Of a DNA stretch of 64,000 nt, positions 6,163 to 24,537 are shown piece after piece (position 1 is the stretch's first letter; the number at the start of each line of letters is the position of its first letter). The notes beneath the pieces were generated by a model. It had not been told where the DNA came from, did not search any database, and was given only the letters and a program-made list of their open reading frames with translations. A program made the position numbers and the translations under genes. Source of the stretch: Planctomycetota bacterium (lineage in GTDB: Bacteria > Planctomycetota > Phycisphaerae > UBA1845 > Fen-1342); assembly GCA_018814045.1 (NCBI GenBank), contig JAHJAR010000060.1:1-64000 (forward strand), in the 5' to 3' direction.

Positions 6163-6694
6163 GTGCCGGGCGTTTGTCTGGCAGCCGGAGGACTTTGCAC
6201 TGTCCGCAAGCCTGAGCCCAAGGGACACCTTTTGACCTGGACCTGCTACGGAACGTGGCTGCACGGCGACCAGCGAGGTGCGGTCGACGACAGCCACAAC
6301 GCACCCGGATCGGCGTTCCTACCGCCGGATTGTACGCGGCTGCTCCACGAGGTTCGGACGATGGCACACCGTCCGGTGAGAGCTAACGACTGCCGGCCGA
6401 CACCTCGTGCGCAAGGCAATCTCCCGGCACTGCGACATTCGCGAATGGACGCTTCACGCGGCGAACGTGCGCACGAATCACGTGCACGTCGTCGTGTCAT
6501 GCGACGTGCACCCGAGACAGGCGCTGGATCAATTCAAGGCGTGGTGTACACGGCGGCTGCGCGAGGCGGGCCACTTCGCCGCGGACCAGCCGGTGTGGAC
6601 AGCAGGCGGCAGCCGGCGTTGGCTGTGGGACAGCGACAGCCTGCGGCGTGCGATCGACTACGTCAGCGAGTACCAAGGTAACGACTTGCGTTGA
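6163..6694 (+). pseudogene. REP-associated tyrosine transposase (Y1/IS200-like), frameshifted
   Basis: The first frame reads LLTWTCYGTWLHGDQRGAVD and MAHRPV, and from about 6385 the next frame reads AISRHCDIREWTLHAANVRTNHVHVVV to AIDYVSEYQGNDLR. Joined, they give one RAYT-type protein: the HVHVVV strand carries the HUH histidines and the tyrosine near YVSEYQ is the likely nucleophile. An extra base (or loss of two) near 6381-6390 separates the frames, so no full transposase is made. The start codon is uncertain; the family opening begins near KGHLLTWTCYG at about 6220. Inverted copies of the same repeat flank the gene, as expected for this class. Confidence 0.75.
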
Positions 6695-22450: not shown

Positions 22451-24205
22451 TTATCCACCCTCCTCCGCAACCGTCTCGCGCACGACCTCCTCGATCGTCG
22501 TGACCCCGTCATACATGGCCAGCATGCCCACCTCACGCAGCATGCGCATCCCGTGCTTGCGCGCTTCCTGTCGCAGCACGGCCGTCGATGCGTGTTTCAT
22601 TATTAACTCACGCAACTCGTCGTCGAGTATCATGATCTCAAACAGCGCCATACGCCCGCGGTAGCCGGTGTTGTTGCAGTAGTCACAACCCTTGCCGTAA
22701 TAAAACGTCCGTCCGGTAACGTCGGCGGTCGTCAACGCCAGTTCCATGAGTTGCTGCTCGGCGGGGACATACTCCTCCTTGCAGTTGCCGCAGATCTTGC
22801 GAACCAGCCGCTGCCCCAGAATGGCCTCCAGCGTCGCGGTGACCAGGAACGGCTCCAGCCCCAGGTCGAGCAAACGCGCAATCGAGCTGGGGGCGTCGTT
22901 GGTATGCAGCGTGGTGAAGACCAAGTGCCCCGTAAGTGACGCCTGTACAGAGATTTGCGCCGTTTCGAGGTCGCGAATCTCGCCCACCAGCACAATGTCC
23001 GGGTCCTGTCGCAGAAAGCTCCGCAGGCAGCGCGCGAAGGTCAATCCGATATCCGGCTTCACTTGGCACTGGATCATTCCGTCGATGTCGTACTCGACCG
23101 GGTCTTCACTGGTCAGGATCTTCGTCTCGACCGTGTTCAGCTCGCGCAGCGCCGAGTAAAGCGTCGTGGTCTTTCCTGACCCGGTCGGGCCGGTAACGAT
23201 GATGATCCCGTGTGGCTTTTTGATGAGCTGCCGGACTGGCGCCAGTTCCTCCTCGCGAAAGCCCAGTTGCTCCAAATCCAGGTTAACCTGCGTCCGGTCA
23301 AGGACGCGCAACACCACGCTCTCCCCAAACATCGTCGGCAATACCGCCACACGCAGGTCTACCGGGCGGCCCTCGATGAGCAGCTCGATGCGGCCGTCTT
23401 GTGGCAACCGTCGCTCCGCGATGTCCAGGTTCGCCATCACCTTGACGCGCGAGGCGATGGCCATCGCCACGTATTTCGGCGGCGGCACCATCTCGAACAG
23501 GATGCCGTCGATGCGATAGCGCATCTTGAACTCGTCCTCGAACGGCTCGAAATGGACATCGGAACTGCGGTCGCGGATGGCCTGGAGCAAAACCAGGTTG
23601 ACCAGCTTCTTGACCGGGTTACTGGCGGCCATTTCCTTCAGCTCGTCCAGATCGATGCTCTCGCCGCGCCCCTCGAACTTGGCCAGTTCCTCATCAGCCC
23701 CGATCTCGGAGATGATCTCGTTGATGGTCTCGGCGGCCTCCTCGGGATAGTAACGGTTGAGAGCTTCGGTCATGTCCTCATCGGTGGTGATGCGGGCCAC
23801 GACCGTGTAACCCATCAGCGTCTTGAGGTCATCGGTGGCGTGAAAGTTGTCCGGGCTGGCCAGCGCAACGCCGAGTGTGTTCGTATCCCGGTCATACTCG
23901 GTGGGCACGATGTGGTAGGCTTGGGCCATCTGGGCGGGGATCAGATCGATCACAGACTGATCGATATCGATGACCCCGAGCGTGATCGACTCCATGCCGA
24001 CCTGGGCCGCCAGAGCGCGGTGGACGTCCGCCTCTTCGACGTAGCCCATCTCGATCAAGAGCTGCCCCAGCGGACCGCGTTTCTTCTTTTGCAGTTCCAG
24101 GGCTTCGGACACCTGCACGCGCGTGACCTTGCCCATCTTGATCAGGATGCGCCCCAGCGGACGCCCCTTTAGCTGCGCGATCGGCGGCATGCCGTCTTCA
24201 GCCAT
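22451..24205 (-). CDS. gspE: Type II secretion/type IV pilus assembly ATPase GspE/PilB
   Basis: The 584-residue cytoplasmic ATPase powers pseudopilus assembly. Two N-terminal MshEN-like modules (GRILIKMGKVTRVQVSEAL and GQLLIEMGYVEEADVHRAL) cover the first 70 residues. Walker A GPTGSGKTT is at 339-347, the Asp box ILTSEDPVEYDIDG near 364-376, Walker B DPDIVLVGEIRD at 401-412 and the His box LVFTTLHTNDA near 428-438. A four-cysteine zinc site is formed by C472, C475, C507 and C510. It is the first gene of the leftward operon. The 22244-22450 gap contains no gene. Confidence 0.93.
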   Translation of the reverse strand: MAEDGMPPIAQLKGRPLGRILIKMGKVTRVQVSEALELQKKKRGPLGQLLIEMGYVEEADVHRALAAQVGMESITLGVIDIDQSVIDLIPAQMAQAYHIVPTEYDRDTNTLGVALASPDNFHATDDLKTLMGYTVVARITTDEDMTEALNRYYPEEAAETINEIISEIGADEELAKFEGRGESIDLDELKEMAASNPVKKLVNLVLLQAIRDRSSDVHFEPFEDEFKMRYRIDGILFEMVPPPKYVAMAIASRVKVMANLDIAERRLPQDGRIELLIEGRPVDLRVAVLPTMFGESVVLRVLDRTQVNLDLEQLGFREEELAPVRQLIKKPHGIIIVTGPTGSGKTTTLYSALRELNTVETKILTSEDPVEYDIDGMIQCQVKPDIGLTFARCLRSFLRQDPDIVLVGEIRDLETAQISVQASLTGHLVFTTLHTNDAPSSIARLLDLGLEPFLVTATLEAILGQRLVRKICGNCKEEYVPAEQQLMELALTTADVTGRTFYYGKGCDYCNNTGYRGRMALFEIMILDDELRELIMKHASTAVLRQEARKHGMRMLREVGMLAMYDGVTTIEEVVRETVAEEGG

Positions 24206-24287
24206 GCAGTTCTCCTTGCTCTAAGCGGGTTAGTATACCCGCCCGCTCCGCCGTCGTGAACAATCTGAACGACCGCCCGCGCGCCAA

Positions 24288-24387
24288 GGGTGTACCGCTG
24301 GATCGTGGCGAGTGGCAGGCACGGAGGCCTGCCCCACTTGCTGGGTGGGGCGGGCGTCCCCGCCCGCCAGAGTCTTGCGGTACACCC
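24288..24387. mobile_element. 100-bp MITE with perfect ends and 9-bp target duplication
   Basis: Left end GGGTGTACCGC (24288-24298) and right end GCGGTACACCC (24377-24387) are exact inverted repeats. The element is flanked by the direct repeat GCGCGCCAA at 24279-24287 and 24388-24396. Two internal hairpins are formed by GTGGCAGGC...GCCTGCCCCAC and by the GGGCGGGCG...CGCCCGCC block. It lies between gspE and arcC and codes for nothing. The rest of 24206-24537 is non-coding. Confidence 0.8.
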
Positions 24388-24537
24388 GCGCGCCAACGCC
24401 GGACTCTGCGGACGATGTCGAGATCGCGCCGGCCAAATGCGTGCACTGCCGTGGGGAAAGGGCTCTCCGCTGAGCCGCGGCCTTCAGCCCGCGCGGCCAC
24501 ACGTCCAGTGGACTGTCGCCAGATCGCGCGCGGTGAT

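Follow-up and report, generated by a model that had tools for sequence, protein, structure and literature searches.

Elements of the Mutator superfamily generate 8/9-bp target duplications and carry IRs of 18-39 bp, according to the accessible sections of Guerillot et al. 2014 (PMC3942029). In the same sections, TnGBS/ISLre2 and part of the ISKra4 group are described as inserting upstream of sigmaA promoters, 13-17 bp from the -35 box; the orientation of insertion is linked to IR asymmetry, and no promoter enrichment is given for IS256. Promoter-directed transposition has been known in a few groups of autonomous bacterial elements. Among non-autonomous elements, RUP, NEMIS, Nezha and other bacterial MITEs are short and non-coding, have inverted ends, occur in many copies and are presumed to be moved in trans, as far as the available part of PMC3733652 describes them; the same part covers GTAG-tagged REPs and RAYTs, families of which are also found in Planctomycetes.

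The element described here, which resembles these MITEs in each of the traits listed, lies in the window, i.e. the whole stretch of 64,000 nucleotides that was analysed. The features of the locus are as follows.

22451..24205, minus strand: type II/IV secretion ATPase gene (GspE/PilB type), downstream of the sigma70-like promoter
24232..24260, minus strand: sigma70-like promoter TTCACG-17-TATACT, with the -35 box beginning 27 bp outside the left end of the element
24279..24287, no strand: left copy of the target duplication GCGCGCCAA, read from the sequence, exact
24288..24387, plus strand: MITE of 100 bp, with 9 full-length copies in the genome
24288..24310, plus strand: left inverted end, composed of the exact 11 bp GGGTGTACCGC (24288-24298), an inner part unlike that of the right end, then TGGCG
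24314..24337, minus strand: first REP-like palindrome, GTGG head on its right side
24345..24368, plus strand: second REP-like palindrome, GTGG head on its left side
24365..24387, minus strand: right inverted end, composed of the exact 11 bp GCGGTACACCC (24377-24387) and an inner part
24388..24396, no strand: right copy of the target duplication GCGCGCCAA, read from the sequence, exact

The earlier note had described a 100-bp MITE with perfect 11-bp ends and a 9-bp duplication, and all of these proved exact in the sequence. Beyond the 11 bp the arms are imperfect (28-nt arms, 75 % complementary), and the inverted ends comprise about 23 bp in all. The element has no plausible coding capacity. 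The two GC hairpins noticed in its interior were correctly seen and correspond to the REP-like palindromes, which occupy element positions 27-50 and 58-81 and whose GTGG heads face each other across TTGCTGG. The oriented, promoter-directed insertion and the REP doublet reported below are additions to that first reading. The secretion ATPase gene matched the Pfam families T2SSE and MshEN when its first 475 codons were scanned.

The genome of the window (G000, assembled in 365 contigs) was searched for further copies, and the outcome favoured the MITE reading, which the lack of a second copy would have refuted according to the earlier note. Nine full-length copies were found, which excludes a chance origin of the structure in the window; a tenth match comprised 36 bp only. 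A search for pairs of exact ends gave such pairs 70-100 bp apart at 4 places, and none for the reversed control. Duplications of 8/9 bp were exact at 5 of the 9 copies and had at most one mismatch at 7, against backgrounds at shifted offsets of 2.7e-5 (exact) and 1.1e-3 (at most one mismatch). The copies differ from their consensus at 0 to 9 of 100 positions, and the distance between two copies is roughly what their own distances from it add up to, a star-like pattern such as a spread from a single source would leave. The window copy differs at 2 positions, so that the claim of recent movement received moderate support from these distances. Oddly, at C249:80013, where the copy matches the consensus at every position, there is only a poor 8-bp duplication (2 mismatches).

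Comparison across 27 genomes from this bacterial family revealed a second sub-family that has these ends. In G006, a member of another genus, an element of about 195 bp with a different core occurs in 15 full-length copies, of which 5 have exact 8/9-bp duplications and 10 have duplications with at most one mismatch. Left and right ends agree over their outer 11 bp in both sub-families, and the inner parts of the ends differ in the same manner in both, being mostly YGGATSTTGGCG on the left and mostly AARACTNTGGCG on the right. The exact 17-position end pattern was found in 2 of 114 genomes of the order. Degenerate copies are present, among the matches listed from a search of the 27 family genomes that allowed up to 3 mismatches in the ends, in G005, which belongs to the genus of G006. 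The promoter region flanking one such locus in G005 (L298, C24) is almost identical to that flanking a locus in G006 (L083, C150), and therefore this insertion seems to be common to two species of one genus; the gene downstream is one that we take to be smc-like. A left end followed by foreign DNA in G006 was considered as a possible autonomous partner and rejected, as it proved to belong to a MITE copy that an ORF interrupts. At L066 (G006:C332, from 3001 to the contig end) the copy is broken after 39 bp by ORF-bearing DNA, and the interrupting ORF, truncated at the contig end, is presumably IS110-type transposase-like.

When the surroundings of the window element were scanned for promoters, a single sigma70-like site turned up; it lies on the minus strand, in the gap that separates the element from the GspE/PilB-type gene. 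The left flanks of the other copies, read outward, showed this arrangement too. Each flank was then scored over 100 bp for its best promoter-like match. On the left side this match began 25-29 bp out from the element in 26 of 32 cases, but on the right side, where one flank was too short for scoring, in only 1 of 23; uniform positions would give 5 %. This scoring is descriptive and no blind test, as it was devised with the pattern already known. Full-length copies accounted for 18/24 (7/9 in G000, 11/15 in G006), and the match was at this distance in all 8 copies that were degenerate or had no right end. Single deviating copies had their best match at 14, 18, 19, 22, 24 and 46 bp. With matches scoring at least 8 placed in 5-bp bins up to 120 bp, 25 of 32 left flanks fell in the 25-29 bp bin and no other bin held more than 2. 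Hexamers of the form TAnnnT (-10) were found 46-54 bp out in 13/24 left flanks versus 1/23 right flanks; in 49 other windows the mean was 0.16 and the maximum 2. Right flanks, other offsets and ISKra4 insertion sequences served as controls for the promoter scoring.

An open frame with high third-position GC begins to the left of all nine G000 copies, at a distance of 52-144 bp from the left end in eight and 444 bp in one. Eight of the nine downstream frames gave Pfam matches over the cut-off (T2SSE, ClpS, RHS repeat, GH106, URO-D, PPIase, cytidylate kinase and MoxR AAA) and the ninth matched PMT_2 below the threshold; near the ClpS copy a second frame was also submitted to Pfam. Read from the sequences, the MITE inserts with its left end facing a predicted sigma70 promoter, whose -35 box lies at a near-fixed distance from it. 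This orientation and spacing hint that the mobilising enzyme recognises promoters. Insertion upstream of the -35 box would leave both gene and promoter intact, which may allow the family to accumulate.

A profile search of the 27 family genomes, confined to the ISKra4 transposase model (NF033572), gave a match in 11 genomes, over the cut-off in 3; the match in G000 reached 198 bits, slightly below the curated cut-off of 205. The 11 ISKra4 copies examined in G026 have the ends GGGTCGGC[AG]TCA with at most one mismatch, and their duplications are exact over 9 bp in 8 copies, exact over 8 bp in one and poor in two. One element each was delimited in G012 (ends GGGTCGGCGTCAGG) and in G000 (ends GGGTGCGTGACACTT, with no recognisable duplication), and clear ends were not found at the ISKra4 loci of G005, G015 and G018. 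The ISKra4-type elements of this bacterial family begin with GGGT and mostly have 9-bp duplications. Among 13 of them the best promoter-like match, weak in several cases, lay at 25-29 bp on the left side in 11 and on the right side in 3.

The MITE shares with the ISKra4 group (p-MULT 4) the 8/9-bp duplications, IRs within 18-39 bp with terminal G/C, the GGGT start of the local members and the spacing of about 27 bp seen in them. It differs in having no transposase gene, in inner end parts that are unlike each other, and in ends that agree with those of local ISKra4 elements over the first 4-5 bases only, so that they are not the ends of a known member. Furthermore, its 25-29 bp to the -35 box stand against the 13-17 bp given for ISKra4, and its single orientation against insertion on both sides by ISKra4 elements with near-perfect IRs, in the accessible sections of PMC3942029. 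As far as the sources available in part describe them, TnGBS/ISLre2 (p-MULT 3) are autonomous, have a spacing of 15-17 bp and are known from Firmicutes and a few other phyla. The spacing of the MITE and of the local ISKra4 elements exceeds the published one by about 11 bp, near one helix turn, and suggests that 13-17 bp is not universal. Mainly because this unusual spacing is common to both, the MITE was assigned to an ISKra4-group (Mutator-superfamily) transposase, which is the likeliest mobiliser.

An autonomous element with the same ends was not recovered in the collections searched. In G000, a result that bears on the earlier note's view that the transposase is not in the window, no pair of the exact 11-bp end occurs beyond the MITE copies, and these were also the sole end pairs in the complete list at up to 3 mismatches, in an assembly of 365 contigs that may lack the partner. 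No transposase element with the exact 17-position end pattern was found in the 114 genomes of the order or in viral contigs, and plasmid and phage collections held no match. A collection of 84,980 genomes gave 77 stretches with the exact end pattern; there was no partner element among the non-MITE matches inspected, and none of the stretches outside the G006 assembly had a convincing partner end. Five of the 77 were inspected closely as partner candidates and rejected, two closely similar ones falling inside an apparent gene. The autonomous relative of a MITE is often unknown, and for this reason the missing partner was not counted against MITE status.

We propose that a DDE transposase of the ISKra4 group, guided to promoters, acts on the MITE in trans, and that the REP core of the MITE is probably cargo; the probability of this explanation as a whole is put at about 70 %. 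The transposase would cut at the inverted ends of about 23 bp and duplicate 8 or 9 bp of target, and the orientation may be set by the unlike inner parts of the left and right ends. A literature search that had subscription papers largely outside its coverage brought up no MITE described as inserting in an oriented, promoter-directed way. Such a MITE, with two ends and no gene, would be a minimal substrate with which to study target recognition by the transposase and the way end asymmetry sets orientation. It could also act as a natural promoter trap in uncultured Planctomycetota, each copy marking a predicted promoter to within a few bases.

There are other DDE families with 8/9-bp duplications, for example IS256 and IS1595, and one of these could have moved the MITE, with the promoter pattern reflecting selection for survivors upstream of promoters. 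It would agree with this that none of the ISKra4 elements found has ends matching those of the MITE, and that the profile search covered ISKra4 among such families. This alternative appears unlikely, however, as selection explains neither a spacing constant within a few bases nor a single orientation, and local ISKra4 elements have the same spacing; promoter enrichment is moreover absent for IS256 in the accessible sections of PMC3942029.

The core of the element was compared with REP sequences. The pattern GTGGGGCNGGCN(4-8)GCCNGCC was found in 21 of the 27 family genomes, with up to 105 matches (G023) and 0-2 per strand in controls. G000 has 16 matches, of which 14 are inside the element (counted by eye over nine copies) and one more is at C145, so these palindromes are common in related genomes and nearly confined to the element in G000. 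Among the loci fetched, inward-facing pairs without MITE ends were seen in G002 (C206) and G001 (C9). At G001:C9 the palindromes stand on both sides of a Y1 transposase domain, as would be expected if they were RAYT-associated REPs; no such palindrome was seen at 30 other Y1 loci. Tandem REP-like palindromes with 78-bp spacing occur at about 1700-2000 of L291 (G014:C492).

REP/BIME sequences mobilised by RAYTs, as treated in the available part of PMC3733652, resemble the core in being tetranucleotide-headed palindromes in an inverted pair, and differ from it in the GTAG head, in the absence of enclosing DDE-type ends with target duplications, and in a link to RAYTs that here is seen as a Y1 association at one locus only. 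The core is probably captured cargo, a REP doublet spread by a transposon shell. In the simplest history the shell would have enclosed a REP pair and then spread it, a direction and mechanism of capture that we infer; such hairpins would then be carried by a second kind of transposon.

The same data bear on a third explanation, in which the whole unit is a BIME/REPIN-like REP doublet spread by a RAYT (Y1 HUH transposase) and the inverted ends are incidental. The GTGG-headed doublet, common in related genomes, speaks for it, as do the Y1 domains present in 26 of the 27 family genomes, with 6 matches in G000; comparing Y1 presence with REP number across the set is uninformative, since nearly all genomes have Y1. 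REPINs have no target duplication and their ends are defined by the REPs, whereas here the 8/9-bp duplications sit at non-REP inverted ends, the same ends surround an unrelated core in G006, and the G000 palindromes are almost all within the element. For the whole element this explanation is already largely refuted, and we consider it very improbable.

Returning to the ISKra4-type mobilisation of a REP-bearing MITE, a more detailed version can be suggested tentatively and at somewhat below even odds. The transposase might read promoter DNA or bound RNA polymerase, insert one way at about one helical turn beyond the position used by TnGBS/ISLre2/ISKra4, and spread the REP-doublet cargo as a portable upstream module or insulator.

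Folding of the element is strong on both strands (z -5.3 to -6.8). Because the element lies upstream of the target promoter, its hairpins would not arise in the mRNA that starts there, but in RNA reading through from the gene upstream, or else in DNA in its single-stranded state. A conserved, immobile intergenic regulatory or RNA structure, for which this folding and the location upstream of genes could be cited, has a negligible probability, as the target duplications largely refute it, the downstream genes are unrelated, the element is outside the transcript starting at the promoter, no terminator-like site was found at the window element, and the Rfam scan gave a single sub-threshold match, outside the element.

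A separate observation concerns Y1 (IS200/RAYT-like) transposase domains, which were found in-frame within ORFs of core enzymes, several of the Y1 matches being weak. In the window's own genome (G000:C11; L336:2324-5119, minus strand) the host is AICARFT/IMPCHase (PurH), and PurH is likewise the host at L343, L348 and L349. Class I tRNA synthetases carry the domain at L288, L337, L345, L346 and L347, which we take to be IleS-like, and at L339, presumably ValS-like. The glycine cleavage P-protein is the host at L340 and L344, and an AlaS-like frame (L342) has two Y1 matches. The linkers are often low-complexity or REP-encoded. Pfam identified a core-enzyme host in 13 of the 13 frames submitted, and no literature linking transposase, isoleucyl-tRNA synthetase and RAYT was found. 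The arrangement looks like a repeated, intein-like lodging of RAYTs. In the window itself, a 104-aa frame at 6398-6583 (plus strand) gave a weak match to Y1_Tnp.
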